DNA of 36,653 bases, taken from assembly GCA_030652215.1 (NCBI GenBank), contig JAUSBC010000044.1, positions 1 to 36,653 on the forward strand, written 5' to 3'. How positions within the stretch are numbered: the first letter of the stretch is position 1; each line of letters begins with the position of its first letter. Below are positions 2,614-21,710 of the stretch, piece by piece. The translations under genes and the position numbers were made by a program. Source of the DNA: Sideroxyarcus sp. (GTDB lineage Bacteria > Pseudomonadota > Gammaproteobacteria > Burkholderiales > Gallionellaceae). The notes under the pieces are model-generated. The model ran no database searches. It was not told where the DNA came from and was given only the letters and a program-made list of their open reading frames with translations.

Positions 2614-2870
2614 ATTGTTCCCGCAGTGACAAGGCGTTGTCATGTTGTATTAGGGCGTGTTGCATGCCCCGGTACCGAAGATACAGGTTTAATGGAATTG
2701 GCCATCGCTTTTCTTTTTCAGGCAGCAGACTGGCGGTTGGTGCGGCCTGCCGTCTGTACGTAAGCGTACACAAGAGCCCGGATATCGGGGCCGGTTGTGG
2801 GTCTGCTCGATCCCTCTTGCAGCTTCATTTTAGGTATAGTCGGACATATGGACATCCAGGGGCGGTCATC
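2614..2870. other. Divergent intergenic region between pldA and fumC
   Basis: This 257-base gap must hold the promoters of both divergent genes. A TATAGT hexamer at 2835-2840, about 30 bases before the fumC ATG, is a possible -10 element, but I see no well-spaced -35. No repeat or small gene is apparent. Confidence 0.35.
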
Positions 2871-5085: not shown

Positions 5086-5130
5086 GACCGGACAGGCGCA
5101 TAGCGCGCAACGGATGCGTAGGAGGCGAAC

Positions 5131-6579
5131 ATGCCTGCTGCAACCAGACAACTGGACGAACTGATAGGACGCGAATACCGGCACGGCTTCGTGACGGCGC
5201 TGGAAAGCGACACGGTGCCGCGCGGGCTGAGCGAGGAAACCGTGCGCCTGATTTCCGCCCTCAAGCACGAGCCGGAATTCATGCTGGAATGGCGCCTCAA
5301 AGCATACCGGCACTGGCTGACCATGACCGAGCCGCACTGGGCCAACATTCGCCATCCGGCGATTGATTACCAGGACATTTTTTACTACTCCGCGCCCAAG
5401 TCGGAAAAAGACGGGCCGCGCAGCCTGTCCGAGATCGACCCCGAGTTGCTGCGCACTTACGCCAAGCTCGGCATTCCGCTCAAGGAGCAGGAATTGCTGG
5501 CGGGCGTGGCGGTGGATGCGGTGTTCGACAGCGTTTCCGTGGCGACCACCTTCAAGGCCAAGCTGGCCGAACTCGGCATCATCTTCTGCCCGTTCTCCGA
5601 AGCCGTGCAACAGCATCCGGAGTTGGTGAAACAATATCTCGGCTCGGTGGTGCCCTATACCGACAACTATTTCGCCAGCCTCAACTCGGCCGTGTTCAGC
5701 GACGGCTCATTCTGCTACATCCCGCCGGGCGTGCGTTGCCCGATGGAGTTGTCCACTTACTTCCGCATCAACGCCCGAAATACCGGGCAGTTCGAGCGCA
5801 CCCTGATCATCGCCGACAAGGATGCCTACGTCAGCTATCTGGAAGGCTGCACCGCGCCTATGCGCGACGAGAACCAGCTGCATGCGGCGGTGGTTGAGCT
5901 GGTCGCGCTGGAAAACGCGCAGATCAAGTACGCGACCGTGCAGAACTGGTATCCGGGCGACAAGGAAGGCCGTGGCGGCATTTATAACTTCGTCACCAAA
6001 CGCGGCGAATGCCGGGGCGCGAATTCGCACATTTCCTGGACGCAGGTGGAAACCGGCTCGGCCATCACCTGGAAATATCCCAGCGTGGTGCTGCGCGGCG
6101 ACAACTCGGTGGGCGAGTTCTATTCGGTCGCGCTCACCAACCATTACCAGCAGGCCGACACCGGCACCAAGATGACGCATGTCGGACGCAATACCACGAG
6201 CACGGTACTGTCCAAAGGCATCAGTGCGGGACACGGACAAAATACGTACCGCGGCCTGATCAAGGTGCTGCCCGGTGCCGAGAACGCGCACAACTACACA
6301 CAGTGCGATTCGCTGCTGCTGGGCAACCAGTGCGGCGCGCATACCTTCCCCTACATCGAAGTGAAGAACCCCACGGCCCGCGTGGAGCACGAGGCTTCCA
6401 CTTCGCGCATCGGCGAGGAGCAGTTGTTTTACTGCACGCAACGCGGTATCGCGCCGGAGGAAGCGGTTTCGATGATCGTCAACGGATTCTGCAAGGCGGT
6501 GTTCCAGAATTTGCCGATGGAGTTTGCGGTGGAAGCGCAAAAGCTGCTCGGTGTGAGCCTGGAAGGCAGCACCGGCTGA
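5131..6579 (+). CDS. sufB: Fe-S cluster assembly scaffold subunit SufB
   Basis: The 482-residue product is a full-length SufB, the core of the SufBC2D complex on which Fe-S clusters are assembled in the cytoplasm. The C-terminal half shows the family blocks [16 protein letters not shown] and VNGFCKAVF. Cys435 in FYCTQRG corresponds to the cluster-related cysteine of E. coli SufB (Cys405). The middle holds the repeated beta-helix core (for example YLEGCTAP). The ATG has an AGGAGG site. The neighbours sufC, sufD, sufS and sufU follow in order with gaps under 20 bases or four-base overlaps, so they form one transcription unit. Confidence 0.97.
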
Positions 6580-6597
6580 CCGGAAAAGGAGAAAAGC

Positions 6598-7362
6598 ATG
6601 CTCAGCGTAAAGAACCTACATGCAGGCATCGCGGGCAAGGAGATTCTGCGCGGCATCGACCTGGAAGTGCGCAGCGGCGAAGTACATGCCGTCATGGGGC
6701 CGAACGGCTCCGGCAAGAGCACGCTGGCGCAACTGCTGGCCGGGCGCGATGGCTACCAGGTGACGGCCGGCACGGTGCGCTATCTGGACATGGATCTGCT
6801 GGCGATGGCGCCGGAAGAAAGGGCGCGCGCGGGCGTTTTCCTGGCATTCCAGTATCCGGTCGAGATTCCCGGCGTGAGCAATGCGCTGTTTCTCAAGACT
6901 GCCCTGAACGGCGTGCGCAAGCAGCGCGGGCTGCCCGAACTCGACGCAATGGATTTCCTGCAGTTACTGCGCGACAAGATGAAACTGCTGGGCATGGACG
7001 ACAAGCTGCTGGCGCGCTCCGTCAACGAGGGGTTTTCCGGCGGCGAGAAGAAACGCAACGAGATACTGCAAATGGCCGTACTGGAACCCAGGCTGGCGAT
7101 ACTCGACGAGACCGATTCCGGCCTGGACATCGACGCGCTCAAGCTGGTGGCGGACGGCGTGAACCGCATGCGCAACGCGGACCGCGCCATCGTGCTGGTC
7201 ACCCATTACCAGCGGCTGCTGAATTACATCGTGCCCGACTTCGTGCATGTGCTGTCGCAGGGCCGCATCGTGAAATCGGGCGGCGCCGCATTGGCGGTCG
7301 AACTGGAGCAGTACGGCTATGCCGGTGTCGAGTCGGAAAACGAGGTGTCGCACGTTTCTTAG
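6598..7362 (+). CDS. sufC: Fe-S assembly ATPase SufC
   Basis: The 254-residue protein is an ABC-type ATPase. Walker A is GPNGSGKST at residues 34-42, the ABC signature region is FSGGEKKRNEI, and Walker B is LAILDETDSGLD. SufC has no membrane domain. It powers conformational change of the SufB-SufD heterodimer during cluster assembly, and the DSGLD sequence after Walker B is typical of SufC. It starts 18 bases after sufB with an AGGAG site and ends ten bases before sufD. Confidence 0.97.
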   Translation: MLSVKNLHAGIAGKEILRGIDLEVRSGEVHAVMGPNGSGKSTLAQLLAGRDGYQVTAGTVRYLDMDLLAMAPEERARAGVFLAFQYPVEIPGVSNALFLKTALNGVRKQRGLPELDAMDFLQLLRDKMKLLGMDDKLLARSVNEGFSGGEKKRNEILQMAVLEPRLAILDETDSGLDIDALKLVADGVNRMRNADRAIVLVTHYQRLLNYIVPDFVHVLSQGRIVKSGGAALAVELEQYGYAGVESENEVSHVS

Positions 7363-7372
7363 CGAGGATGAG

Positions 7373-8701
7373 ATGAACGCGCAAATCGAATCGTGGGAAG
7401 ACATCGCGCTGGAACGCATACCGCTGTTCCTGGCCGGTCATGACGTGCCCTGGGTGACCAGGGCGCGCCAGTCCGCGTTCGCGCGTTTTGCCGAGTGCGG
7501 CTTCCCCACGCGGCGCGACGAGGAGTGGAAATATACCGACGTGGCGGCTATCGCCAAACGCACTTCGCTGGCGCCGGACAACATCCCTCCCGATCCTTCT
7601 TCCGAGGCGGCATTGTTTGCCTGGACGCTGGCGCAGAAGGGCACGCACCTGATGGTGTTCGTGAACGGACACTATTCGGACGAATTGTCTGCCCTGGGTG
7701 AACTGCCGAAGGGCGTGCGCGCGGAGAGTCTGGCCGAGGTGCTGGACGGAAGCGCGGACTTGTCGGAAGCGTTCTTCGACCGCGAGCATGAACACGGCGT
7801 ATTTGCCGCACTCAACAATGCATTGATGACGGACGGCGCGGTGCTGGAACTGGCGCCGGGAGCGGTGCTGGAAAAGCCGCTGTACCTGCTGTTCATTTCG
7901 AGCGGAAACGGCACGGCCGATTATCCGCGCAACATCATCATGGCGGGCGAGGGCGCGCGCGCCACGGTCATCGAGCATTACTTCGGCATGATGGAGGCGC
8001 ACAACTTCACCAACGCGCTGACGCAAATCAGCCTGGCCGCCCGTGCCGATTTGCAGCACTGCAAGCTGCTGCAGGAAGGCAATGCTTCCTACCATATCGC
8101 CGGCATTCACGCGGAGCAGGCGGCGGGCAGCCGTTTCGTGTCGCAATCGTTCGCGCTGGGCGGCCGCCTGGCGCGCAACGACATCACGTCGCGCCTGGAC
8201 GGCCCGGAATGCCGGTGCAATTTCGACGGCTTGTATTTGCTCGACGGCAGGCAGCATGCGGACCACCACACGCGCATCGACCACTGCGCGCCGTCCTGCA
8301 CCAGTCGCGAATATTACCGGGGCATACTCGACGGCGAGTCGCACGGCGTGTTCAACGGCAAAGTGGTTGTCCACCCCGGCGCAATCAAGACCGATGCGCA
8401 CCAATCCAACCGCAACCTGTTGCTGTCGCGGCAGGCCGAAATTGACACCAAACCGCAACTGGAAATATTCGCCGACGACGTGAAGTGCACGCACGGCGCG
8501 ACCGTCGGCCACCTGGACGATGATGCCCTGTTCTACTTGCGCACGCGCGGCGTGGATGAAGAGTCGGCACGCTCGCTGCTGATCTACGGTTTCGCCAACG
8601 ACATCGTCGCCCGGGTCGAGGCGCCGGATATGCGCGCGCGCATCGAGCATCTGGTGCTGGATCGCTTGCCGCAGGGCGACCAGATCAAGGAGCTGTTATG
8701 A
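7373..8701 (+). CDS. sufD: Fe-S cluster assembly protein SufD
   Basis: The 442-residue protein is the SufB paralogue that pairs with SufB in SufBC2D. The C-terminal block VKCTHGATVGHLDDDALFY contains the conserved CxHGAT motif, whose histidine is important in E. coli SufD (His360). I start it at ATG 7373, just downstream of the sufC stop with GAGGATGAG as ribosome site. An earlier in-frame start would overlap sufC and add 18 unrelated residues. Its TGA overlaps the sufS ATG by four bases, suggesting translational coupling. Confidence 0.95.
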   Translation: MNAQIESWEDIALERIPLFLAGHDVPWVTRARQSAFARFAECGFPTRRDEEWKYTDVAAIAKRTSLAPDNIPPDPSSEAALFAWTLAQKGTHLMVFVNGHYSDELSALGELPKGVRAESLAEVLDGSADLSEAFFDREHEHGVFAALNNALMTDGAVLELAPGAVLEKPLYLLFISSGNGTADYPRNIIMAGEGARATVIEHYFGMMEAHNFTNALTQISLAARADLQHCKLLQEGNASYHIAGIHAEQAAGSRFVSQSFALGGRLARNDITSRLDGPECRCNFDGLYLLDGRQHADHHTRIDHCAPSCTSREYYRGILDGESHGVFNGKVVVHPGAIKTDAHQSNRNLLLSRQAEIDTKPQLEIFADDVKCTHGATVGHLDDDALFYLRTRGVDEESARSLLIYGFANDIVARVEAPDMRARIEHLVLDRLPQGDQIKELL

Positions 8702-9951
8702 AGATACTCGACAAGCTCATGCATCACGACGATGTGCAGGCGCAATTCTGGCGCACGGATTTCCCGGTCCTGAAATCGCGGGTGCACGGCAAGCCGCTGG
8801 TCTATCTGGACAACGCGGCCACCACCCAGAAGCCGCTGGCGGTGATCGAGGCAGAGAGCGACTATTACCTCAACTACAACGCCAACGTGCACCGCGGCGT
8901 TCACGCGCTTAGCCTGCGCGCCACGGAAGCCTACGAAGAAGTGCGGGTCAAGGTGCAGCACCTGATCAACGCGGTCAGCCCGGACGAGATCATTTTCGTG
9001 CGCGGCACCACCGAGGCGATCAATCTGGTCGCGCAAAGCTACGGCCGCAGCCGCCTGCAGGCCGGAGACGAGATCGTGCTGAGCGAAATGGAGCACCATT
9101 CCAATATCGTTCCCTGGCAGATCCTGTGCCAGCAAACCGGCGCCAAGCTGCGCATTATTCCGGTCAACGATCTGGGAGAGCTGCAGATGGAGGCGTATGC
9201 GGACCTGCTGAACGAGCACACGCGACTGGTGGCGGTGACGCATGTTTCCAATTCGCTGGGCACGATCAATCCGGTCAAGGCCATCGTCGCGCTGGCGCAT
9301 GAGCATGGCGTGCCGGTGCTGGTCGACGGTGCGCAGGCCATTGCGCACCTGCCGGTGGACGTGCGGGATATGGATTGCGATTTCTATGCGTTTTCCGCGC
9401 ACAAGCTGTACGGCCCCACCGGCGTGGGCGTGCTGTACGGCAAAGCAGCGCTGCTTGAAGCCATGCCCGTGTATCAGGGCGGCGGCGACATGATCAATTC
9501 CGTCAGTTTCGGGGAGACCACCTTCAATGTCCTGCCGTTCAAGTTCGAGGCCGGCACACCCAACATCGCGGGCGTCATCGGCCTGGGCGCCGCAATCGAC
9601 TATCTGGGCAGCATCGAGTGGGATGAGCTGGTCGCGCATGATCGTGCATTGCTGGCCTATGCCACGCCCCTGCTTGCCTCGGTATCCGGATTGCGCATCA
9701 TCGGTAACGCGCGCGACAAGATCGGCATTCTGTCCTTCGTGCTGGAGGGCATGCATGCGCACGACATCGGCACCCTGCTCGACAGCGAGGGCGTGGCGAT
9801 CCGCACCGGCCACCATTGCACCATGCCGCTGATGCAGCGCTTCGGCGTACCGGCCACGGCGCGCGCCTCGTTTGCGCTGTACAACACGCGGCAGGAGGTG
9901 GACGCGCTGGTGGAAGCGGTCTACAAGGCAAAGGAGGTGTTTCGGCCATGA
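8698..9951 (+). CDS. sufS: Cysteine desulfurase SufS
   Basis: The 417-residue protein is a group II PLP-dependent cysteine desulfurase that supplies sulfur as a persulfide. The PLP lysine is Lys236 in FSAHKLYGPTGVG, and the persulfide cysteine is Cys374 in RTGHHCTMPLM. The short loop before this cysteine is the RxGxHC form typical of SufS rather than IscS. The gene overlaps sufD and sufU by four bases each (ATGA). The likely sulfur acceptor is the adjacent SufU, since no sufE is present in the window. Confidence 0.96.
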   Translation: MKILDKLMHHDDVQAQFWRTDFPVLKSRVHGKPLVYLDNAATTQKPLAVIEAESDYYLNYNANVHRGVHALSLRATEAYEEVRVKVQHLINAVSPDEIIFVRGTTEAINLVAQSYGRSRLQAGDEIVLSEMEHHSNIVPWQILCQQTGAKLRIIPVNDLGELQMEAYADLLNEHTRLVAVTHVSNSLGTINPVKAIVALAHEHGVPVLVDGAQAIAHLPVDVRDMDCDFYAFSAHKLYGPTGVGVLYGKAALLEAMPVYQGGGDMINSVSFGETTFNVLPFKFEAGTPNIAGVIGLGAAIDYLGSIEWDELVAHDRALLAYATPLLASVSGLRIIGNARDKIGILSFVLEGMHAHDIGTLLDSEGVAIRTGHHCTMPLMQRFGVPATARASFALYNTRQEVDALVEAVYKAKEVFRP

Positions 9952-10385
9952 ACGATCTGCGCGAGCTTTATCAGGAAACCATCCTCGACCACTACCGCCA
10001 GCCGCGCAACGCGGGCCGGCTGGTCGGCGCCAACCGCACGGCCGAAGGCTACAACCCGTTGTGCGGCGACAAGGTGAAGCTGTACCTGAAAGTGGAAGAC
10101 GGCGTGATACGCGACGTGCGCTTCGAAGGTTACGGCTGCGCCATTGCGACCGCCTCCGCCTCGCTGATGACGGAATGCATCAAGGGCAAGAGCGAAGCCG
10201 AGGCGCTGCAGTTGATGGAAAGTGTCCACGCCATGGTGGCCGGCGGCGGTACAAGCGCCGAGGGGAAGCTGGCGGTGCTGGCCGGCGTGCGCGAATTCCC
10301 GCAACGCGTGAAGTGTGCAACGCTGGCCTGGCACACCATGAAGGCCGCGCTGGATAACGTCGAGGAAGCGGTGACGACGCAATAG
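9948..10385 (+). CDS. sufU: SufU-type sulfur acceptor / IscU-fold protein
   Basis: The 145-residue protein has the IscU/SufU fold with Cys39-x-Asp41, Cys64 and Cys123. The 59-residue distance between the second and third cysteines, and a lysine instead of histidine before Cys123 (VKCATLAW), are features of SufU rather than IscU. In Bacillus subtilis SufU is a zinc protein that takes sulfur from SufS, and that role is expected here. The start at 9948 overlaps the sufS stop. The open frame extends upstream in another reading of sufS, but that part is not family-like. SufU is better known from Gram-positive bacteria. Confidence 0.9.
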   Translation: MNDLRELYQETILDHYRQPRNAGRLVGANRTAEGYNPLCGDKVKLYLKVEDGVIRDVRFEGYGCAIATASASLMTECIKGKSEAEALQLMESVHAMVAGGGTSAEGKLAVLAGVREFPQRVKCATLAWHTMKAALDNVEEAVTTQ

Positions 10386-10387
10386 CT

Positions 10388-10408
10388 TATTGATCCGGCC
10401 AGGTGAAG
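10388..10408 (+). repeat. 21-base interspersed motif, copy 1
   Basis: This motif (TTGATCCGGCCAG core) recurs with one mismatch in the opposite orientation at 21574-21594. A weaker relative (TTGGACCGGCCAAGTG) is at 21448-21463. Function is unknown; it is probably the end of a short repeat element. Confidence 0.55.
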
Positions 10409-10413
10409 CCATG

Positions 10414-10472
10414 TAGGTTGGGCAAAGCGCAGCGTGCCCAACATGTTTGCATCGACAATTGTTGGGCACGCT
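10414..10472. repeat. GTTGGGC-family palindromic repeat between sufU and sufT
   Basis: TAGGTTGGGCAAAGCGCAGC continues into GTGCCCAAC at 10432-10442. The 12-base arm AGCGTGCCCAAC (10431-10442) is repeated inverted at 10461-10472, giving a long stem-loop. The same family appears three times at 27485-27700. It splits the suf operon and could dampen or stabilise the distal transcript. Confidence 0.75.
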
Positions 10473-10542
10473 ACGCCCTTCGACCAAGCTCTGTAGCTTG
10501 AATTGAGGTTTTCAGAATGAATCGGATTGCACGAGGTGACAC

Positions 10543-10899
10543 ATGGTCGACTTCGAAAAACTGAGCGAGCACCTGCAGGAAAAACCGTCCGACCGGGAGG
10601 AGCTGGAGGCGCGCGTCATCGCGGCGCTACGCACCATTCGCGATCCGGAAATCCCGCTCAACATCTACGACCTCGGCCTGATCTACGAACTCGACGTGCA
10701 GGAGTCGGGCGAGGTGAGCGTGCGCATGACCCTGACCACGCCCAACTGTCCGGTGGCGGAGAGCTTCCCGACTGTCGTGCAGACCGCGCTCTGGTTCGTG
10801 GACGGCGTCAGCGACGTGAACGTGGAACTGGTGTGGGAGCCGCCGTGGAGCAGCGAGCAGATGTCGGAAGCGGCACGCCTGCAACTCGGCTTGTTGTGA
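10543..10899 (+). CDS. sufT: SufT / MIP18-family (DUF59) Fe-S maturation factor
   Basis: The 118-residue protein has the DUF59 pattern: DPEIPLNIYDLGLIYEL at about 34-50 and the TTPNCP motif with the conserved Cys69. Related proteins (SufT, PaaD, eukaryotic CIA2) help mature Fe-S proteins and are often the last genes of suf operons. The start has a GAGGTG site. It lies 157 bases after sufU, across a palindromic repeat, and 15 bases before a Rieske protein gene. A PaaD-like role in a ring oxygenase system is less likely given the suf context. Confidence 0.9.
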   Translation: MVDFEKLSEHLQEKPSDREELEARVIAALRTIRDPEIPLNIYDLGLIYELDVQESGEVSVRMTLTTPNCPVAESFPTVVQTALWFVDGVSDVNVELVWEPPWSSEQMSEAARLQLGLL

Positions 10900-10914
10900 G
10901 GAAAGGGACCGGCG

Positions 10915-11226
10915 ATGGGCAACTGGCTGGATGTCGCAAGCACGGACGAACTGGCACCGGGCATGCGCCGCGTCGTCGACGCGGACGGCTTGGCGGTGGC
11001 GGTGTTCAATCTCGGCGGCGAATATTTCGCTATCCAGGACATCTGCCCCCACGACGGGGGTGAACTGGCCAAAGGTGTGCTGGAAGGCGAAGTAATCGTC
11101 TGCCCGCGCCACGGCGCACGATTCTCCGTTAAATCCGGCAGCGTGCTGGGGCCGCCCGCTTATGAAGACATACGAACGTTTTCGGTGCGGGTTGTGGATG
11201 GCAGGGTGCAGGTTGAGGCGGGTTGA
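10915..11226 (+). CDS. Rieske-type [2Fe-2S] ferredoxin
   Basis: The 103-residue protein is a complete single Rieske domain. CPHDG (Cys44, His46) and CPRHGARF (Cys63, His66) are the cluster ligands, so two cysteines and two histidines are present. It has no signal or membrane anchor, so it resembles soluble ferredoxins that pass electrons to oxygenases or nitrite-reductase-like partners. Rieske ferredoxins are often found at the end of suf operons, where they may serve as electron donor or cluster user; that role is inferred. A tandem heptamer repeat runs over its stop codon. Confidence 0.9.
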   Translation: MGNWLDVASTDELAPGMRRVVDADGLAVAVFNLGGEYFAIQDICPHDGGELAKGVLEGEVIVCPRHGARFSVKSGSVLGPPAYEDIRTFSVRVVDGRVQVEAG

Positions 11227-11251
11227 GGGTTGAGGGTTGAGGCGGGTTGAG
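11211..11251 (+). repeat. Tandem GGTTGAG heptamers
   Basis: Copies of GGTTGAG occur at 11211-11217, 11221-11227, 11228-11234, 11235-11241 and 11245-11251, two of the junctions carrying an extra GCG. The array includes the last codons and stop of the Rieske gene. Confidence 0.8.
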
Positions 11252-11532
11252 GATGGAAGGGGGAGGTGTTGGCTATTTGTCAGTTGAAACAGATGTGGCG
11301 AAGGGGGCGAGAGGGGGGCAGGTTTCACATACCATTGCTTTAAAGGCAATAGTCTGGGTTTGAAGTAACAGGCATTGTCTGATGATCGGCCATAGCGTCT
11401 GTTTGCTATAACCCCTTAAATCTTGCCAGCGTCGGCTTCCATGAATAACGACAAATGCCTAGCTGGGTGGTCCAGAGTTGGCCGGGTCGAGTATCATCTG
11501 CAACCATTATCATACCCCCCCAAGAGAAATAG
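11252..11532. other. Intergenic region before the large nuclease-ATPase gene
   Basis: Between the heptamer array and the ATG at 11533 the sequence turns more AT-rich. A near palindrome (ATTGCTTTAAAGGCAAT, 11334-11350) could be a protein site. A TATAAC at 11407-11412 is -10-like, but I see no -35 at normal spacing. No small gene is convincing. Confidence 0.4.
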
Positions 11533-14500
11533 ATGAGCATCGCAGGAATACGCTCCAACCGCGGTGACGGCTACCAGACATTGGTGGCATTTGATTGGGC
11601 ATTGACAGTCCTGTACAACCCCGACTATCTATGGCTTGAAATAGATTCGGTTACGTATTCGGTGGACGATGTGGTAGTCGGCAAAGCCGACGGCACTCAG
11701 ATTGCTTGTCAGTGCAAAAAGAATCAAATCGATTTCAAGGCATGGACGATAGCCGACCTCGCGGATGAATTGGGCAAAGCATGCAATTTGCTGACCAATA
11801 ACCAGAATGCAGAAGTTCGCTTCTATTCACGCAACAACTTTGGCGGTCTTGCAAAATTGAGAGAGCACAGCACGACTGAGCATGATGAAACTAGCTACCG
11901 GACGAGTTTAGGCAAAGAGCACCAAGAAACAGATGCAGCTTTGTTGGCACGACTTGCCACTTCAATCCCCTGTCTTTCAACTTACGAATTCCTGCGCCGC
12001 ACAAAATTTGTGACCAGCGATGAACTGGATCGTATGGTGGAGCTGTTGCGCGAACGCTTGCGTAACATGGCGAGCAATCCAGATGCCGCATTCAATGCAC
12101 TCTGGACACGCCTCGATCAACTCGGGGCGCGCATGGGCGGCAATAGCGCATCTGCCACCACTCAGCACCGATTAACCAAAGACGACCTCAAGGCCATTCT
12201 CCAAGAGGCTGGCGCAATGCTGGTCCCGCCCATGAATCTTGCTGAGGTACGTTTATCGTTTTCCGGCACCTCAGCCATCGGAAGATCGTGGCGGCGAGAC
12301 ATTGCGGGTCAACACTTTTTCAACCCGACCGTAAACGAACTACTCGCAGCCATTGATGCCAAGAAGCGCGCCATCTTGCTCACAGGTATGCCGGGTTCTG
12401 GAAAAACCTGTGTGATGCTTGCGTTTCAAGAGTTATTGGAGGAACGCGCACAAACCCGCTTAGACGTCGTTCCACTCTTCATCCAGTCGCGCGAGTTCGC
12501 CGACTTGGCTACATCACAAGACCGACAAGCCCAGGGCCTGTCGGAGCAATGGGTGGAAAAAGCTGCTCGGATGGCTGAATACGCGCATGTGATTGTGGTC
12601 ATGGACTCCTTGGATGTGCTGTCCATCGCCCGCGATCATCGCGTACTAACGTACTTTTTGGCGCAAATAGACCGTTTGCTATTGATTCCAAATGTCACTG
12701 TGGTTACTGCTTGTCGCGACTTTGACAGACATTACGACCGAAGAATTGCCGAAAGGAAATGGGATTGCGAATTGAAGTGCCAGCCCTTGGACTGGGATGC
12801 TGAGATCGCACCTTTATTGGATACGCTAGGGATTGCGACTGCCACCATCGATGCACTTACCCGCGAGTTGATCAAGAATCCTCGCGAACTGGCATTATTT
12901 GTCGAGTTGGCCCAGCGAGAAGGCAGCTTCAACGTTGTGACTAGTCAAGCCTTGGCACAGCGTTATCTTGATACCATCGTGCGGGCCAACGGCGCACTGG
13001 GTGATGCGGCGATACGAGCGATTGAAGATATTGCCACAGAAATGCTGAAATCACGCAGCCTGGTGGTGCCACGCCAGCGCTTCACTGCCACGCAGGATAT
13101 TCAGCGGGCACTTTGCAGCCTCAACGTGCTGCAAGAAACCCAAGATGGGAAGCTGACGTTCGGGCATCAAACCTTGCTGGATGTGCTGGTCATCAGCGGG
13201 GCCGTGCGTAATGGCGTTACGCTGAATGAGTTCATACAGGGCTTGCCCCCCGTTCCTTTTGTCCGCCCCAGCATCCGCAGTTTTGTCTCACAGTTGGCGC
13301 TAGGGGAGCGCCGAGAATTCAGAAAGCAACTGCGTGCGGTATTGACTGGTAGTGCTGCCTTCCACATCAGGCGCTTGGTTGCAGAATCATTTGCTGAACA
13401 GATACCCCAGGAAGACGACTGGCCATTGTTACGTGACTTGCGCGAAAAACACCGCGATGTTTTTCAGGTGATCTACGCCTTGGCTGCGGCGATTGAGTGG
13501 CATCGATTCTGGCTCAAGCATCTGGTTCCCGTTTTGAAAACTGCGCAGGATGCCGAAGGATTGACGGGACATGCTCATCGCATTGCGCAATGGAGCAATG
13601 AAGATACCGCAGGTGCGCTGTCATTCTGGATGGAGGCGCTGTCACTAGATTGGCTTGATGGCAATGGTATTGCAGATCAACTGGGATTTCATCTGTCTGA
13701 GATCAAGAAGGAGAATTTGGCAGTGGCTGTTCCATTGCTTAAGCGGCTGCTCGATATGCCGCGACCGGAACACAGCTCTTTGGGGCGAGTCATCGCCCGT
13801 TGTGTGGCGACAGACGTAGCAGATGACACCCTGCTCTGGCGTTATATCGCAGATGGCATCAGCGACGAGGATTTGCTTGAGTACCGATTCGATAGGAAGT
13901 TGCGCTGCCATGCCCATGAGTTTGGAGACCAAGAGGGAAATTTTGTCCGGCAACGCATGGAGCAATCCACCGCACTACTGGATTTAGCCTTGGAATCGGT
14001 TGAGCGCTGGAGCTATGTTCATACATCGCGCAATGGCGAAACCCGCATAGGCTACCGATATGGCTTTTTGGGCGAAACCTCTTACGAAAATGCGCATAGT
14101 CAGAGAGAGATTCGACACGCAGACAGTATGGTCGACCTGCTTGATGCGGTTGAAGCTGCCATTCTTTACCACGCAAAAACAGACTCTGACTGGTGGAAAA
14201 ACAACCGCGAGCGCCTGTGTTTCAATTACGAAGGTGCGTTGCTCTACTTCGCCATCCTCGCTTGCACTGCAGCACCGGTTGGCAACATTGATTTGATCGG
14301 GCGCATGTTGTGCGATAGAAATTTGTTGGAGTTCAAGCTTACCTACGAACTGGGGGGGCTAATACAGTCGGCTTTCCAGTTCCTAGATACCTCAAAGCAA
14401 GATGCTGTGATGGCGAACATCTTGACTGTATGGGAAGAAGAGATTGCCGATGAACGCGGCCGTTTCTGGATACTGAAGAAACGAGCCGAATTGATCGCCA

Positions 14501-16110
14501 CGATCCCTTGCCACCTGCGTTCGCCCGAAGTGCAAGCAGTGGTGGATGCATATGAGAGAAAAGCAGGGGTGTTGATTCGTCAACCGGATATCCGTTCGCA
14601 TGGCGGCACGGTCAGCGCGCCATTTTCGTTTGAAGTATTCCTCGCCGCCAGCGATAGCGGGGTGATGAGCTTACTAGCACACTACAACGGCCACTCAGAT
14701 TGGCATGGTGGTGGGGCTGATTTTTTGGTTGGCGGTGAGCGCGAGGTTGGCTGGCAACTACGCGAGGCTTCATCTCGCCACCCCACTCGATTTTTGGGCT
14801 TGTTACCAATCCACTGGGCTGAAATTCCTGAAAAGTTTCGGGATGACATCATGGACGGTGCCGCTGGTTACCTGTCTCATCGTTATGGCAACTTGCAAAC
14901 CAACGAAACATGGCTACCTGTCGAGGAGCCAGATGCCCCCACATTGGCAAGCCATATTCTTGATGAACTAGAAAGGCATTCACAACACTGGAAGCTAAGG
15001 CGTTCCACTGCCAACGCACTAGAAGCCTGCGCCAATGTCATACAGGATGCACAAAATGCTGAACGGCTGATATTTTTAGCCATAGGCTTTGAACGGCTTC
15101 ATGAAGTCGATCCAACTAAGGGTGACAACGTAGGTTTGATCTCTCTGGGTATTAATATGGTAAAGGGAGACGTTGCCGAAGCCTTGATGATCTTGGCCAA
15201 TAACTTTCGAGAACGCGGCAGCGTATTTCCTGAATTGCTGGCACCCACGTTGCGCCGTTTTGCGGGTGACGAACACCCGGCGGTTCGTGCTTTGATCCTG
15301 CGTCGTTTACCCTATTTTCAGAGCAAGATTTTCGATCTGGGCTGGGATTTGTTCCACCTCGCAATGCAAGATGCAGATGGGCTTTGGCAAATCGCCGAAC
15401 CATGCCTTTATTACGCCTACCACAATCAGTTTGAAGTAGTGGAACCCTTGCTGGCGCGTCTTCGTAACGAGGGAGTCGATAAAGATTTAGAAACATGGGG
15501 GCGCATTATGGCCTTGGCAACCATGGCCCGGCACATCGATTTTGCTGAATTTTTGGAGGACTTGAATGCTCTGGATAACACTGAGGCTTGGCAGGGCGCG
15601 GCAACCGTTTGGACAAACTCTGAAAATATTCGACAACATCGGGAGCAGTGCCTTGCTGGCATGGATTCTGGACTAAATGCAGGTGCTACACATGCCGTAG
15701 AAGTAGCGGGGCAGATGGATCATCTTTTCGGCGATAAGTCAGCCGTAATTTCTGTTCCGATTGAACTGATTCGCCGCTGCTTTTCTGTTTTCGAAAGCGA
15801 TAGCGAGAACAAACATCATCGCCTCTTCCGGTTTCATGAATGGCTCAACGCGACTTCGCAACATGATCCAGAGCAAGCCTTGGCTGCAACTGAGATTTAT
15901 CTGGCCTATGTCCGCCATAGCAAGCCGTATCTATATGACCATGAGAATAGCCTTACCCAACTAATGACTCGTCTTTTTGCTGAGGCAGAAGAACGAGAAG
16001 AGTCTGACTGTGGCGCGATGCTGCAACGCGTGGTGGTGATACAAGACACGCTACTTTCACTGGGAGTCAATGGCGTAGTCGATTGGCTGAAGGCAGCCGA
16101 GCGACCGTGA
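11533..16110 (+). CDS. Putative antiphage STAND/NACHT ATPase with N-terminal DUF4297/Cap4-like nuclease
   Basis: The 1525-residue protein has three parts. Residues about 1-200 look like a PD-(D/E)XK nuclease of the DUF4297/Cap4 type: GDGYQ near the start, then VDDVVV (Asp45/Asp46) and QCK at 60-62 as candidate metal and catalytic residues. Residues about 270-560 form a P-loop ATPase: Walker A GMPGSGKT at 285-292, Walker B HVIVVMDSLD with Asp358, then TACRDFDRHY, a NACHT/STAND-like sensor position. Residues about 560-1525 are long, Trp-rich and probably helical repeats, which in Avs proteins recognise phage proteins. The ATG has only a weak AAGAG site. Sample G+C is lower than in the suf genes (29 of 60 at 15181-15240 against 40 of 60 at 6661-6720), which suggests transfer. 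It stands alone. An antiphage role is inferred from architecture; the exact family is not settled. Confidence 0.7.
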   Translation: MSIAGIRSNRGDGYQTLVAFDWALTVLYNPDYLWLEIDSVTYSVDDVVVGKADGTQIACQCKKNQIDFKAWTIADLADELGKACNLLTNNQNAEVRFYSRNNFGGLAKLREHSTTEHDETSYRTSLGKEHQETDAALLARLATSIPCLSTYEFLRRTKFVTSDELDRMVELLRERLRNMASNPDAAFNALWTRLDQLGARMGGNSASATTQHRLTKDDLKAILQEAGAMLVPPMNLAEVRLSFSGTSAIGRSWRRDIAGQHFFNPTVNELLAAIDAKKRAILLTGMPGSGKTCVMLAFQELLEERAQTRLDVVPLFIQSREFADLATSQDRQAQGLSEQWVEKAARMAEYAHVIVVMDSLDVLSIARDHRVLTYFLAQIDRLLLIPNVTVVTACRDFDRHYDRRIAERKWDCELKCQPLDWDAEIAPLLDTLGIATATIDALTRELIKNPRELALFVELAQREGSFNVVTSQALAQRYLDTIVRANGALGDAAIRAIEDIATEMLKSRSLVVPRQRFTATQDIQRALCSLNVLQETQDGKLTFGHQTLLDVLVISGAVRNGVTLNEFIQGLPPVPFVRPSIRSFVSQLALGERREFRKQLRAVLTGSAAFHIRRLVAESFAEQIPQEDDWPLLRDLREKHRDVFQVIYALAAAIEWHRFWLKHLVPVLKTAQDAEGLTGHAHRIAQWSNEDTAGALSFWMEALSLDWLDGNGIADQLGFHLSEIKKENLAVAVPLLKRLLDMPRPEHSSLGRVIARCVATDVADDTLLWRYIADGISDEDLLEYRFDRKLRCHAHEFGDQEGNFVRQRMEQSTALLDLALESVERWSYVHTSRNGETRIGYRYGFLGETSYENAHSQREIRHADSMVDLLDAVEAAILYHAKTDSDWWKNNRERLCFNYEGALLYFAILACTAAPVGNIDLIGRMLCDRNLLEFKLTYELGGLIQSAFQFLDTSKQDAVMANILTVWEEEIADERGRFWILKKRAELIATIPCHLRSPEVQAVVDAYERKAGVLIRQPDIRSHGGTVSAPFSFEVFLAASDSGVMSLLAHYNGHSDWHGGGADFLVGGEREVGWQLREASSRHPTRFLGLLPIHWAEIPEKFRDDIMDGAAGYLSHRYGNLQTNETWLPVEEPDAPTLASHILDELERHSQHWKLRRSTANALEACANVIQDAQNAERLIFLAIGFERLHEVDPTKGDNVGLISLGINMVKGDVAEALMILANNFRERGSVFPELLAPTLRRFAGDEHPAVRALILRRLPYFQSKIFDLGWDLFHLAMQDADGLWQIAEPCLYYAYHNQFEVVEPLLARLRNEGVDKDLETWGRIMALATMARHIDFAEFLEDLNALDNTEAWQGAATVWTNSENIRQHREQCLAGMDSGLNAGATHAVEVAGQMDHLFGDKSAVISVPIELIRRCFSVFESDSENKHHRLFRFHEWLNATSQHDPEQALAATEIYLAYVRHSKPYLYDHENSLTQLMTRLFAEAEEREESDCGAMLQRVVVIQDTLLSLGVNGVVDWLKAAERP

Positions 16111-16143
16111 TCTATCCAAGATATGCCACAATTTCTCAGTAAT

Positions 16144-16875
16144 TCATTCCATTGAGCTTCGTGTTTCGTAGTGCGTGCAATAATTTCTTCGAAGGTACTT
16201 ATCAAGTCTCGGTTCATCATTCTTCTTAGTGCTTTCGTCTAATGCCCATATTTTGCAACGCGATCTTTTGATTTGCTCATCGGGTGCCTCAACCAATATG
16301 GCGAATTGAGGTTCGAGTATCCATTTCGAAAGTAAATAGAAGTGATACTCCCAAGCGCAGCAACTGGCCCTGCCACTTGCGACAAAATAGCCACGTTTAT
16401 CTTTAAAGAAATCAACGAAACCTTCTTCCAGAACTTTTTGAAAAAGACGTTGGCTGGGGTCATAAAACCAAATTGAATGCCAAGAATTGACGTTGCCAGT
16501 GTAAACAGGAAACATTAGGTCTGGATACCCATCCAGATTTACATCCTGCGTTTTAGTGGGAAATAAGTTGGCATTCTCTTCTTCTACTTGGAATGTTTGG
16601 AGTGACATATTTGTTGACTGGTCGATTACATTCACTTCTAAGTATGATTTGCCTAATGGGCATGTTTGTTTGATTAAAAGAGAACTGCCATCTCTTGCAG
16701 CGAGTGTTATATCTATCGAATACGGTATGCCGTTTTCTCCTGCGCGCATGTCACAAATAGCGTTGCCATCGACGGCGTTGGCATACGACATAAATGAGAG
16801 GCAGATTGAAGTCACAAGCACATTCACAAAGAGATGCCGTGAGCCAATGCTATATAGCCTAAGTAGGTTTGCCAT
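16144..16875 (-). CDS. Putative periplasmic immunity protein, XAC2610-like
   Basis: The 243-residue protein starts with a signal peptide (basic residues, hydrophobic core, cleavage near SYANA). It contains DVNLDGYPDLMFPV and a downstream WFYDPSQRLF, a pattern I associate with XAC2610-like proteins. XAC2610 of Xanthomonas inhibits XAC2609, a GH19-type peptidoglycan hydrolase effector of a killing type IV system. Here the gene begins directly after the stop codon of an effector with a GH19 domain (TAG then ATG), with GGGA as ribosome site. Together these support an immunity role in the periplasm. It is strikingly AT-rich (21 G+C in 60 bases at 16561-16620). Calcium binding by the DxNxDG-like loop is possible. 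Confidence 0.7.
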   Translation of the reverse strand: MANLLRLYSIGSRHLFVNVLVTSICLSFMSYANAVDGNAICDMRAGENGIPYSIDITLAARDGSSLLIKQTCPLGKSYLEVNVIDQSTNMSLQTFQVEEENANLFPTKTQDVNLDGYPDLMFPVYTGNVNSWHSIWFYDPSQRLFQKVLEEGFVDFFKDKRGYFVASGRASCCAWEYHFYLLSKWILEPQFAILVEAPDEQIKRSRCKIWALDESTKKNDEPRLDKYLRRNYCTHYETRSSME

Positions 16876-19017
16876 CTAATTCCCAATCAATTCAGTTTTC
16901 GCACTGATAAAGGCCTGCTTACGTTCTGCCAGACCATTGGCGCCACCGTTAACCAAACGAGTAATCTTCTTCACAACATCTTCTGAATCGCCGGTATCAG
17001 CAATGATATTGCCGTTACCTCTACCGCTACCCATTGTCCAATACCATCCTGATGAATCGCAAGCATCAACTGCATTGATCGAAATCTGTTGGGGATTGTC
17101 AATCACTGCAGCTTTCTCATCGTTATTGTCCCACCAGTATTTTTTGAAGGTCTTTTCATCAAGCCAGCCTCGATATACCCAATACTTTGCGTAGTTGGCA
17201 CGACCAGTCAGATGCAATAAGCCACGCCCACGAAACTTGACTGCATCTTTACGTGATGGATCATCAGCTTCATTAGCAATTTTGCTGCGGACATTACCAA
17301 TGTTGCCGATGTACTGCTGAAAGTATGTATCTTCAATATCGCAGTAGTAGGTAGTAGCATTCTCAAGATTTACATTTCTACTGGCACTCTTGTTTCCCTT
17401 TTCTATAGCGTACATTAGGCCGCCTGTCTCTACTGCCACCTGCGCCAAGAAATGGCACTGCCTCAACCTGTTCTCATTAATCCCGTATTTCTCCATCGTC
17501 TCGTTGAGAGGCATGAGATATTTTTCAATATTCTCATCGGTGATTCCCGGCATGATCGCCCGCAACTGCTCCTTCGTAATCCCACGCAAGCCCTTCAAAT
17601 GAGCAATAAACGCTACCGGATGCAAATGCCACACCGTTGAAGAGGCGGGTTTCTGTGTCACTTGCTCCCAGAAGGTAAGCTGTTTGATGTGTGTCAGTTG
17701 CTGTTGGTATTGAGCCTCTTTGAGTTTCCATGGCACGCCCTGCAGGCGTGCAAACTTGGTTTCGAGGCCGGTTGCACTCCATTCGGTCGGGTGGCGGCAG
17801 ACGAGGTGGCGCAGTTGCTTGGCAGTGTCGGCGTTACGCAACGCGGCCTTGATCTCGTCAATCGAGATGTCGCCATCATGGTCGGTATCGAGTTGTGCGA
17901 CCAGTGCGACCACGTCTACAAAGCCGTCCTGGCTGAAGCCGCTCGGGTCTTCGATGCGTTTGAAATCGGGCCAGGTGTAGGCATTGATCTCGCCTTCTTT
18001 GGCACCCCAGGTCTCTTGCTTGGGGTTGTCGAGCAGGCCGATATTGTCGGTAAACACTTCCACATGAGCCACTGCTTCGCGCCTGCAGTACGGGCCGGTG
18101 TATCCCAGCAGCTCACCCGCCTTGACCGGCAACGGCGTTTCGAGATTGATGACACTGTCCCACTGAATGGGCTCCACGACATCTTTTGCACTGACCGATT
18201 GTGCGGTGGTGTGGACAAATACGCCGCCGGGTTCAAGTTCGCGATAGGCGGGGGTTTTAAGGAAACCCTTGTCGTGAACGGCTTGTTCCTTGAAGTGCAG
18301 TACTTTGCCCTTGGGGGCAAAGTCGACGACCTTTCCTTTGGAGGCGGCATTACGCAGGTTGGTGCCTCGTTCTGCAGCGTTTGCGTTTGCACTTGTTAGC
18401 GTGGCGGTGTAACTGTTGGCAGCGGGGCGAGCTTGGCGGGCGCGCGCGCGACCGGTGTCCACGCAGCCTTCAATTCCGTTGAAGCTGACGTGACGCCACT
18501 CGCCGTGCATAGCCGGGTCGATGATGACTTCGAACGGGCTGCCATTGGGAATATAGCCAAGCACGGTGTTTGAATTGACAAGATCGCAGATTGATAGTCC
18601 GAAATCGGTGTCCAGAGCTACCGTGTAACGTTTCTGGTGGAAGATCGACGGCGCTTTGGCAAGTTGCGCTGCGCTGTATTCGCCGATGGGCAGCAGATGC
18701 ATGTACAGCGAATGAAATTTGATCTGTGCGCCTTTGGGTGTTTCGTAAGTGTGGCGAAGCAGAACGAAGCTGTGCGAGAAGGTTTGTTCCCTGTCTTCGA
18801 GTGTGGCAGACAACTTCAGGTTGCTGACGCGATAGGCGACGATCTCGCCGTCCCACATGGCGCGCACCGGTTCATTACCATGCAGATGTATGCCGCCGTG
18901 CCAGAAACGGTTGGTGCCGACCGGATAGAAACCGGCCGGGCCACCCTCGGCGATGGCAAAGAGTTGTTCGGGCGTTTTGTTGGTTAGAGAGAATAAGGGC
19001 AACAACATGAGTGGCAT
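16876..19017 (-). CDS. VgrG-linked peptidoglycan-hydrolase effector (M23-like, SH3-like, EF-hand, GH19)
   Basis: The 713-residue protein is multidomain. Residues about 25-65 hold FWHGGIHLHG and DGEIVAY, and HVEVF occurs further on, resembling a degenerate M23 peptidase fold (HxxxH and HxE instead of the HxxxD and HxH metal motifs). An SH3-like stretch follows at about 155-190. A textbook EF-hand loop, DTDHDGDISIDE, lies at 377-388. The C-terminal about 215 residues are a GH19-type lysozyme domain: AVETGG with Glu530 as candidate catalytic acid, then GRGLLHLTGRANY. No signal peptide is seen, which fits delivery on a VgrG spike. The ATG is preceded by GGAG inside the end of vgrG. The GH19 part is poorer in G+C than the N-terminal part, suggesting a swapped toxin tip. 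Confidence 0.82.
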   Translation of the reverse strand: MPLMLLPLFSLTNKTPEQLFAIAEGGPAGFYPVGTNRFWHGGIHLHGNEPVRAMWDGEIVAYRVSNLKLSATLEDREQTFSHSFVLLRHTYETPKGAQIKFHSLYMHLLPIGEYSAAQLAKAPSIFHQKRYTVALDTDFGLSICDLVNSNTVLGYIPNGSPFEVIIDPAMHGEWRHVSFNGIEGCVDTGRARARQARPAANSYTATLTSANANAAERGTNLRNAASKGKVVDFAPKGKVLHFKEQAVHDKGFLKTPAYRELEPGGVFVHTTAQSVSAKDVVEPIQWDSVINLETPLPVKAGELLGYTGPYCRREAVAHVEVFTDNIGLLDNPKQETWGAKEGEINAYTWPDFKRIEDPSGFSQDGFVDVVALVAQLDTDHDGDISIDEIKAALRNADTAKQLRHLVCRHPTEWSATGLETKFARLQGVPWKLKEAQYQQQLTHIKQLTFWEQVTQKPASSTVWHLHPVAFIAHLKGLRGITKEQLRAIMPGITDENIEKYLMPLNETMEKYGINENRLRQCHFLAQVAVETGGLMYAIEKGNKSASRNVNLENATTYYCDIEDTYFQQYIGNIGNVRSKIANEADDPSRKDAVKFRGRGLLHLTGRANYAKYWVYRGWLDEKTFKKYWWDNNDEKAAVIDNPQQISINAVDACDSSGWYWTMGSGRGNGNIIADTGDSEDVVKKITRLVNGGANGLAERKQAFISAKTELIGN

Positions 19018-19022
19018 TTGAT

Positions 19023-21215
19023 TTACTCCGAGAAACCGAAACCGGCGACCATTGACTCAATTGCGCTCACGGTGAGCGGCTTCAACGCTTCCAAACTCAA
19101 CTCGCCCCCCGCCCCAATCGAATAACTCACATTGCCCTTGAACTTCACCCCGCCGTTTCCGGCGAGCGTCACTGCCTTACCGAAGAGCTTCACATTCCCG
19201 CCCGCATCAATCTCAATCCCGCCGCCGTTCTGTCCGATCTTGATACTGCCCATCCCTGTGCCCTTGATGCTGATGCCCTGGGCAGCCTGAATACGGATGC
19301 TGCCGTTGTCGATTTTGACGATCTGGTCGCCCTGCTTGATGGTGACGATGTGATCGCGGCTCACGCGCCATTGGGTGGCTGCGCCGGATTTGTGTTCGAT
19401 GTTCTGGTCAGCCTTGTGGGTGATGTTGTCCTGGGCGCTGTGGGTCTGGTCGGTGGCGGCTTGGTAATGAATGTCCTTTTTGTTTGTGGTGAGCTTGTGG
19501 CTGTTTTCAACGGTTTCGCTGCGGTCGTTGCCGTGGGTTTGGGTGATGGAGTCGCCAGCTTCGGTTTTCATGGTCTGTTTGGCGTAGACCTCCATGGCGC
19601 CCAGGGTGGTGGCGAATTTGATGGCGTGTCCGGCGCTGTTTGCGTCCAGCCGCATCAGGTTGAAGGGGCGGTCGTAGTCGCCTTGTTTGAGTTCGATGTG
19701 TTCTTCGCCCTTGATGTCGTGCATCAGCAGCTCGTTCTTGCCTTTGGTGCGGATGATGTTGTCGCCGAAGTTGCGGCTGGTGACGGGCGATTGGGTGGCG
19801 GGATCGGGCAGGGTGCCGAGGATGATGGGGCGGTTGCGATCTCCGTCCACGCTCGCCCAGACAACTTCCACGCCGTCGCGATACGGGAAGGCCGCCCCTA
19901 CTGTGTTGCCGCTGCCCGGCCCGCCGTGGAAACTCAGGGTGCGCATGGGCAGGCTGGCTTCGGTGTGGGCGGTTTCATCCTTGTCGCGGGTGTCGAACAG
20001 CTTGCGCACCCGGAAACGGCCATGTTCGTCCAGCAGGGCATAAGTGCCGTTCGATTCGATGCGTGCACTATATATAGTAGGCAATACCTGCGCTTGTTTT
20101 GGCTCGGGGCGGAAGGGCAGTGCGCGCGGGATCAGGCGGGCGTGCTGGGTGTAGGCGAGGTTGCCCAGGTCGCTTTCATGTTCGACTGCGGCTTGTTGCT
20201 GGAGGGAGTGGGTCATGCTCATGACGAGGTAATCGCCGTTGTACTTGGCATGCGCCGGATGCTCGAAGCTGAATACGGCTCCCGGATGCAGGCCCGCTAC
20301 AGGGCCGAATATCTCGACGCGCAAGCCGTCAACGGCATGGCGTTCGTTGATGATGCGGGAACGCAGTTCGGCTTCGTCCGGCCCGTTGGTGCCGAGGCCG
20401 TAGTGGACGTGGGCGGGGTCGTTTGCGGCGGGGCCGATACCGGCTTTGATGACGTTGTCGGGGGCCATGGGGTTGAAATCCACGACTTGCACGTTGGGGG
20501 GAACCAAGCGACTGCCTTTGATGAATTTGTTGAAACAGGCTTGCGGTTTGTCCAGGCCCGCATCGGCGATGAAAGGGATGTTGCCCAGTTGCAGTGTGGT
20601 GAATTTTTCGTTGTTGTCGGTGAAATTCAAGATGTCTTTGCCATCTTTGACTGTGAACCAATAGCTGATGCCGACCTCGGTTAGCAGGCGTTCGACATAT
20701 TCCAGGTCGGTTTCGCCGAACTGGACGTTGTAGGGTAACGCGGGATAGGTTTTGCTGAGGTGCCACAGGGCGCTGTCGCTGTCGATGTTGTGTTGTTTCA
20801 GGACGGTCGTGACGATGTCGGGGATGGTCAAGCCTTGAAACACCCTGTTGTCGGTGCTTTGCGATAGTTCCCATAGTCGGGGGCGTAGCAGGATTTCTAC
20901 ACGGGGTTGCTTGTTGGCATTCAGGCCTCGATCGCGTTGCTGAGTGACGATTCCGGCAAGGGTGCGTTCGTGGCAGGAGGAATCGGTAAGAGTGACGACG
21001 CCCGGTTGACCCAGCCACGCCGAATTCAACTCAGCCAATACGTAAAGTGTCGCGCTGAACGGGGTGGAGATGCCTTCTGTGCCGTCGAATGAAATCGCAT
21101 CGTGGCTTTGCCCGGTGATGGTGAAACGCAGGCGGGCGGAGTTGGCGGCGAGGGATTTTATTGCGGAGAGGGCGGTGGCGGGGTCGGTGGGGAGTTGCGA
21201 GAAGGGTAGGGTCAT
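19023..21215 (-). CDS. vgrG: Type VI secretion spike protein VgrG (TssI)
   Basis: The 730-residue protein follows the VgrG plan. A gp27-like N-terminal part comes first, including YVERLLTEVGISYWF. A gp5-type OB-fold follows with RVRKLFD and PYRDGVEVVWASVDGD, and next the NNIIRTK-like segment that introduces the beta-helix (here FGDNIIRTKGKNELLMHD). Last come repeated short strands rich in G, K and I. A trimer would form the puncturing tip and carry the effector encoded six bases downstream. The start at 21215 has GAGG ten bases upstream; an earlier in-frame start at 21311 adds 32 atypical residues. No other type VI genes are in the window, so this is an orphan vgrG island. Confidence 0.93.
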   Translation of the reverse strand: MTLPFSQLPTDPATALSAIKSLAANSARLRFTITGQSHDAISFDGTEGISTPFSATLYVLAELNSAWLGQPGVVTLTDSSCHERTLAGIVTQQRDRGLNANKQPRVEILLRPRLWELSQSTDNRVFQGLTIPDIVTTVLKQHNIDSDSALWHLSKTYPALPYNVQFGETDLEYVERLLTEVGISYWFTVKDGKDILNFTDNNEKFTTLQLGNIPFIADAGLDKPQACFNKFIKGSRLVPPNVQVVDFNPMAPDNVIKAGIGPAANDPAHVHYGLGTNGPDEAELRSRIINERHAVDGLRVEIFGPVAGLHPGAVFSFEHPAHAKYNGDYLVMSMTHSLQQQAAVEHESDLGNLAYTQHARLIPRALPFRPEPKQAQVLPTIYSARIESNGTYALLDEHGRFRVRKLFDTRDKDETAHTEASLPMRTLSFHGGPGSGNTVGAAFPYRDGVEVVWASVDGDRNRPIILGTLPDPATQSPVTSRNFGDNIIRTKGKNELLMHDIKGEEHIELKQGDYDRPFNLMRLDANSAGHAIKFATTLGAMEVYAKQTMKTEAGDSITQTHGNDRSETVENSHKLTTNKKDIHYQAATDQTHSAQDNITHKADQNIEHKSGAATQWRVSRDHIVTIKQGDQIVKIDNGSIRIQAAQGISIKGTGMGSIKIGQNGGGIEIDAGGNVKLFGKAVTLAGNGGVKFKGNVSYSIGAGGELSLEALKPLTVSAIESMVAGFGFSE

Positions 21216-21357
21216 GAGGTGCCTCGTTTCGGCTGAGTTGGCGATAGCTTCAAACTGAAGGCAACATCGGCAAGCGCGATGCGGCCTCAAAATCGGGGGC
21301 AAATATAGCATGCTGAGGAAGTGGTTATTTTGTCGTGACGGACTATGGGTATTGGGA

Positions 21358-21403
21358 AAAGTACTAGGCAGATATCTAGTACTTTGCGGCGGGAACTAGT
21401 ACT
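21358..21403. promoter_or_regulatory. AGTACTAG inverted repeat with third half-site
   Basis: AAAGTACTAG (21358-21367) and CTAGTACTTT (21376-21385) form a perfect 10-base inverted repeat with an 8-base loop. A third CTAGTACT lies at 21396-21403. The arrangement looks like a dimer operator with an extra half-site, about 145-190 bases upstream of the vgrG start. A cruciform or weak terminator is the alternative. Confidence 0.45.
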
Positions 21404-21481
21404 GCGGGGTGTGGGCGGGCAATGGTTCAAGGCAGGCGCATGTTCAATTGGACCGGCCAAGTGTAATTTGAAGTATGAACC

Positions 21482-21560
21482 CAACCCCTCCCAGCCTCCC
21501 CTTGTCAGGGGAGGAGCAGACTCTGCTCTCCCTCTGACAAGGGGGAGATGGAGGGGGGGC
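21482..21560. repeat. Palindromic repeat element, short copy
   Basis: The left end AACCCCTCCCAGCCTCCCC and the right end GGGGGAGATGGAGGGGGGG match those of the element at 4280-4456, but the interior is much shorter (CAGGGGAGGAGCAGACTCTG and a following hairpin). Confidence 0.7.
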
Positions 21561-21573
21561 TTCTGAGTTCAAA

Positions 21574-21594
21574 CTTCATCTGGCCGGATCAATA
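21574..21594 (-). repeat. 21-base interspersed motif, copy 2
   Basis: Reverse complement of the motif at 10388-10408 with a single mismatch. A degenerate copy at 21448-21463 faces it across the palindromic repeat, so the pair may be the outer ends of that element. Confidence 0.55.
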
Positions 21595-21696
21595 GTGTAG
21601 GCCGTGGTTGGTGGAGGGGCGGCCGGAGCAAGTGATACCTCCCGAATGCCCGGTCCCGGACAGAAGAATAATCAACCTTATGGTATCCTCCGAATC

Positions 21697-21710
21697 GTTA
21701 GCTAACTAAC
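21697..21710. promoter_or_regulatory. Candidate operator of the efflux operon
   Basis: GTTAGCTAAC is a perfect 10-base palindrome, immediately followed by another TAAC. It lies about 75 bases before the adaptor gene, where TetR- or MarR-type repressors of RND pumps commonly bind. No such regulator is encoded next to it, so the assignment is tentative. Confidence 0.35.

Follow-up and report, generated by a model that had tools for sequence, protein, structure and literature searches.

Avs proteins unite a nuclease, a STAND ATPase and a repeat tail in one protein, and the nucleases of the Cap4, HerA-associated DUF4297, Hachiman and LmuA kind work under a SAVED domain or with separate partners, with no STAND module fused to them. 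In PMC12931631 the STAND plan is given as an N-terminal effector, a central NTPase and a C-terminal sensor region, the nuclease effectors of Avs1-4 are described as cutting both phage and host DNA once terminase, portal or another phage protein has been recognised, and the repeat types described for Avs5 are TPR, Sel1 and PPR. Here we analyse a stretch of 36,653 nucleotides from Sideroxyarcus sp. (contig JAUSBC010000044.1; hereafter the window), in which one gene encodes P0001, a protein that carries the same three parts as the Avs proteins in a single chain. We regard it as probable (roughly 0.78) that P0001 acts as an antiphage alarm encoded by a single gene: the tail would bind a phage protein, whereupon the ATPase would drive assembly and the nuclease would cut DNA. 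We count P0001 among the nuclease-STAND proteins, and by sequence it matches none of the Avs types. What is observed and carries this reading comprises the motifs, the length, the domain order, a solved homologue, a sporadic distribution, mobile contexts and varied N-termini.

The first-pass annotation of this DNA, made from the sequence alone, had given the length and coordinates of the reading frame exactly, and the features that it named are all present (Table 1), namely the N-terminal PD-(D/E)XK-like motif, the Walker A and B motifs and TACRDF. The nuclease motif has the form D-D-x13-Q-C-K (VDDVVV...QCK, with D45, D46, Q60 and K62), and the N-terminal residues, MSIAGIRSNRGD, are largely kept across 15 aligned homologues. 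In Pfam searches AAA scored above its cutoff, and NACHT and AAA_16 below theirs; a STAND NTPase is recognised by a P-loop ATPase in its middle that bears both Walker motifs, and P0001 has one. As to the predicted structure, the annotation had proposed a fold check, and this gave a nuclease-type fold at the N-terminus, where the AlphaFold2 (AF2) model matches HerA-DUF4297, Cap4, Hachiman and LmuA, so that both the PD-(D/E)XK-type fold and the D...QxK residues of DUF4297/Cap4/LmuA-type nucleases are present in the prediction. Pfam DUF4297 gave no match to P0001 at E<=0.1, and the link to DUF4297 that had been drawn is one at the level of predicted fold. Residues 1-575 as a whole match Avs3/Avs4 in predicted fold, and the ATPase region matches Avs4, EfAvs5, NLRC4 and NLRP3 and also AAA+ proteins of a general kind, among them NSF and ORC. 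The repeat-like C-terminus that had been noticed is predicted as a helical solenoid with 57 helices in residues 545-1525. Altogether, the AF2 models and the varied effector domains in relatives agree with the tripartite STAND plan of effector, NTPase and C-terminal sensor region, in which the tail would be the sensor.

A homologue of P0001 has already been solved. The only PDB sequence matched by phmmer up to E 10 is 9n00 (also 9n01 and 9yix), an 'AAA family ATPase' of 1,523 aa, whose residues 1-1523 align end to end with residues 1-1525 of P0001 at 2,488 bits; it also ranks first in the PDB when profiles built from the N-terminal part, the tail or the whole family are used. P0001 is a full-length homologue of 9n00 but a distinct protein. 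The identity between the two is about 69% over the first 300 residues, and the protein nearest to 9n00 among the best 120 of 912 homologues comes from Brenneria goodwinii (87% over the first 300 residues). Three PDB entries for a full-length homologue mean that the family is not unseen, and in this respect the word 'new' in the first-pass annotation is not supported. Literature searches found no article on 9n00, 9n01 or 9yix, and none of the three appears among the fold matches (fold library up to 8 April 2026).

What we do report as a new observation is the exchange of effectors in this family, with caspase, trypsin or SEFIR standing at the nuclease end. Among nine plasmid records with a match, four (Nostoc carneum, Microchaete and two Tolypothrix) hold relatives that align only from residue 210 on and are annotated as caspase-family or pentapeptide-repeat proteins. 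A search from one plasmid relative gave 154 matches, of which the best 120 were pooled with those of the first search into 240 proteins; the 230 with at least 1,400 residues were aligned, and the 10 shorter ones, one with a caspase domain, were dropped. According to precomputed Pfam assignments, the N-terminal domain of the 230 is a caspase in 12 (at least some of them cyanobacterial, from Nostocales), a trypsin in 4 and SEFIR in 1, and the remaining 213 were classed as nuclease forms. In the nuclease forms Q60, K62, K63 and N64 are kept in 213/213 and D45 and D46 in 212/213; all four of D45, D46, Q60 and K62 occur together in 212/213, the sole exception, P0108, having a gap at D45/D46. By reading of the aligned strings, nine of the 12 caspase forms retain a readable nuclease remnant and three do not, and in the nine remnants one or both aspartates are gone without exception (NN, DN or ND) and K62 is gone in eight. 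The best-kept remnant, that of P0125, differs by one aspartate only and may therefore not be fully inactive. K291, T292, D358 and R395 are intact in all 230 proteins, whatever the effector.

A tree of residues 236-1525 was made by a quick method. Of the 230 rows it includes 71, which comprise every one of the 17 non-nuclease forms and 54 nuclease forms. At least 7 changes of effector label are needed on it, where the minimum is 3 and shuffled labels give 16.2 on average; at least 4 changes for caspase and at least 2 for trypsin are required by the starred branches, and loss of the nuclease motif pairs with caspase in all three independent pairs on supported branches. Because the caspase fusions with a readable remnant have lost motif residues, the nuclease appears to be the effector and the rest sensor and switch. 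A STAND switch with a nuclease effector fits, since ATPase and tail are conserved, the N-terminus is exchangeable and the motif decays only beside another effector. As judged from these alignments, the data support a build in which sensor and switch stay constant and the effector can be replaced. On a Tolypothrix plasmid (L022:763-13345), the genes next to a caspase-STAND relative encode a trypsin-like peptidase and another caspase-family protein. On a plasmid of Nostoc sp. MS1 (L023:5001-10826), a relative is split by an IS630-type transposase gene.

The gene is sporadic in distribution. Matches at E<=0.001 were found in 3/100 relatives and 5/369 genomes of the class, and the family profile at E<=1e-30 matched 4/398 genomes of the phylum, all of these counts including the own genome and partial or distant matches. 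The best 120 of the 912 homologues reported consist of the window's own protein and 119 others, which have 74-89% identity and 1,474-1,537 residues. When genome contigs were scanned, 18 loci were obtained from Proteobacteria, Chlorobium, Ignavibacteria and Geobacteraceae, and identity stays high between phyla, at 64% for Chlorobium and 68% for Ignavibacteria. Lateral transfer of the gene across phyla is the simplest reading; as the records are metagenome-assembled, wrong binning is possible for the Chlorobium, Ignavibacteria and Geobacteraceae loci. In Stutzerimonas (L011:10001-14562) a relative loses its frame just past the QCK motif, and so this copy looks inactivated, unless the break is an assembly error.

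Several relatives lie in mobile contexts. The family profile matched four viral contigs of IMG/VR, three with full-length genes. In L035 (2184-16847) a full-length relative is flanked on one side by the genes for terminase, portal and head protease and on the other by one for replication initiation, in L036 the gene comes after those for tape measure, tail and a phage DNA polymerase, and in L037 a tail-fibre gene is near; two of the ten proteins scanned from these contigs had no match. The portal and terminase of the L035 phage would be unlikely triggers of this relative, because their genes are close to it on the element. In genome contigs, 30 chosen neighbour proteins from 12 loci were scanned, and 18 from 10 loci were compared with PADLOC. 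One locus (L010), next to gyrB/dnaN, is Tn7-like, with TnsA and a TnsB-like transposase adjoining the gene; another (L008) has a UmuC-like polymerase as neighbour, and a neighbour in L015 has a weak PADLOC match and is a histidine kinase by Pfam. These data support the gene being solitary, in contexts that are not conserved.

In the window itself, a SUF operon lies to the left of the gene. To the right, the opposite strand carries an XAC2610-family gene, the gene of a 713-aa EF-hand-like/endolysin-like protein and the VgrG gene; the XAC2610-family protein may be the immunity partner of the 713-aa protein. At 0.49-0.54, the G+C content of the gene is lower than that of the SUF region on its left (0.60-0.63), just as had been noticed. 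In four relatives (G003, G004, G023 and G028) the left end of the window and the RND genes are about 3 kb apart (in G004 joined via a 4.7-5.1 kb stretch), and with such spacing and joining the stretch from 5.1 to 21.7 kb cannot be present between the conserved flanks. In G010, G021 and G023 the SUF operon is present, and blastn at E<=1e-10 aligns nothing of the window with the 7.6-8.7 kb beyond its end; the gene itself had no match in these three genomes. Both sets of relatives thus place the gene in a region that varies between strains (about 5100-21700). The NifU-like gene of the window's SUF operon has a close homologue (71% or more) in 5 of the 34 genus genomes, its own included. The flanks are therefore not the two core operons that had been assumed, as 5.1-21.7 kb is missing in four relatives; they are the SUF operon and a type VI secretion system (T6SS) VgrG module, and the RND permease begins only from 22.9 kb.

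Table 1. Features of the P0001 gene and of its surroundings in the window (residue numbers refer to P0001).
Feature	Position	Strand	Remark
Whole gene, P0001, 1,525 codons and stop	11533..16110	+	one uninterrupted open reading frame
Shine-Dalgarno-like AAGAGA, 5' of ATG	11522..11527	+	
PD-(D/E)XK-type nuclease domain (predicted), residues 1-205	11533..12147	+	
Nuclease motif D45-D46 ... Q60-C61-K62	11665..11718	+	homologue alignment
STAND/AAA-type ATPase module, residues 236-575	12238..13257	+	Pfam and fold matches
Walker A GMPGSGKT, residues 285-292 (K291, T292)	12385..12408	+	K291, T292 in 230/230 homologues
Walker B region, residues 355-361 (D358)	12595..12615	+	D358 in 230/230 homologues
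TACRDF sensor-like motif, residues 392-397 (R395)	12706..12723	+	R395, F397 in 230/230
Helical HEAT/ARM-like solenoid (predicted), presumed sensor, residues 576-1525	13258..16107	+	
T6SS module	16144-21311	-	
XAC2610-family protein	16144-16875	-	
713-aa protein	16876-19017	-	EF-hand-like stretch (below Pfam cutoff), endolysin-like C-terminus
VgrG	19023-21311	-	T6SS module
RND permease gene	22936-26058		
Phospholipase A1 gene	1615-2643	-	Pfam PLA1, 2.4e-66

If the order of events is taken from Avs1-4, the tail of P0001 would bind a phage protein, and an ATP-driven assembly would come next, with oligomerisation assumed from Avs3/Avs4 and the NLR relatives. The assembled nuclease would then cut DNA as its presumable substrate, and the infection would be aborted with cell death or arrest as the probable outcome. 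For P0001 we infer by analogy antiphage activity, DNA cleavage and a phage-protein trigger. Several results weigh against this alarm reading. The 30 chosen neighbours are mostly housekeeping or unassigned and do not form a defence island, and strong PADLOC matches occur in only 3 of the 18 compared, a DrmMI/type IIG methyltransferase (L009), a helicase (L018) and the TnsB of L010. In the PADLOC run that the first-pass annotation had proposed, P0001 itself matched neither LmuA nor an Avs model at E<=0.1; Avs1b and Avs2 are among the models of that library. The tree carries long-branch warnings, and three independent pairs are too few for significance (sign test p 0.25). Moreover, the mean entropy is 0.83 bits in the solenoid, 0.74 in the nuclease and 0.54 in the STAND part; the solenoid is not hypervariable and the arms-race signature is weak, so that with a tail of only moderate variability a conserved trigger fits better than an arms race.

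The same chemistry of sensing and cutting could serve a prophage- or transposon-borne exclusion factor directed at competing mobile elements such as plasmids or other prophages, and this overlaps with the antiphage alarm in everything except the target. The relatives in IMG/VR contigs, with packaging and replication genes in L035 and tail genes in L036, and the one beside TnsA/TnsB in L010 speak for it; but the part of the window's reading frames that was scanned has no phage structural gene besides the T6SS VgrG, and most scanned neighbours in genome contigs are not phage-like, for which we hold it unlikely. Hardly different in weight is a restriction-like enzyme that would sense no protein but recognise DNA itself by its ends, modified bases or structures, and whose ATPase would be a motor that remodels DNA. 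The N-terminal fold is indeed of the Cap4/Hachiman/LmuA kind, Hachiman and Lamassu nucleases act beside DNA-sensing ATPases, and HEAT solenoids can bind DNA; however, the ATPase region matches the folds of STAND/NLR, Avs and general AAA+ proteins, no helicase or SMC motor is found among the 50 fold matches listed, and the occurrence of caspase, trypsin and SEFIR at one end of a shared chassis suggests a general signalling switch. Least probable of all seems a sensor of stress or damage for regulated cell death that is not specific to phage. The caspase relatives in filamentous cyanobacteria resemble the programmed-death modules discussed for these organisms, whereas a sporadic distribution that moves laterally across phyla is typical of defence and not of a housekeeping stress response.

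Going beyond the single protein, we tentatively suggest, at slightly less than even odds, that P0001 belongs to the nuclease-bearing branch of a bacterial NLR-like lineage of its own, which differs from Avs1-5 and has a HEAT-type sensor. In this lineage one chassis would have been refitted repeatedly (nuclease, caspase, trypsin, SEFIR), with most caspase versions carrying a disabled nuclease fossil, and the chassis would read a single widely conserved phage signal, which remained constant as the effectors were exchanged. If this is true, the few bacterial NLR-like immune proteins known are joined by one with a further type of sensor, and nature provides an experiment in which one sensor is combined with four effectors and the old nuclease is damaged where the caspase took over. 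It could then be tested which single phage feature the conserved sensor reads, and whether effectors swap without retuning of the sensor.

In comparison with the known systems, the relatives of P0001 have some matches of their own in PADLOC: P0110 and P0225 match LmuA at 1.2e-6 and 6.1e-5, P0175 matches Avs1b at 1.7e-7 via its trypsin domain, and a piece of locus L003 matches Avs2 weakly (0.0048). No PDB chain named Avs was matched at E<=10 by P0001 or by the N-terminal, tail or family profiles, though 8dgc, 8dgf and 9jap are in the PDB. Avs3 and Avs4 (8dgc and 8dgf), whose chains are without a sequence match to P0001 at E<=10, are nevertheless the best fold matches of the full model, with 13-14% identity in the structure alignments. 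The Avs-like nuclease-STAND build that had been proposed for P0001 accordingly holds in the predicted fold, and also in that the gene is solitary and sporadically distributed. P0001 differs from Avs5 (SIR2-STAND) in the effector, which in Avs5 is an NADase, and from the Avs proteins in the tail, which is TPR-like in these and HEAT/ARM-like in the model of P0001.
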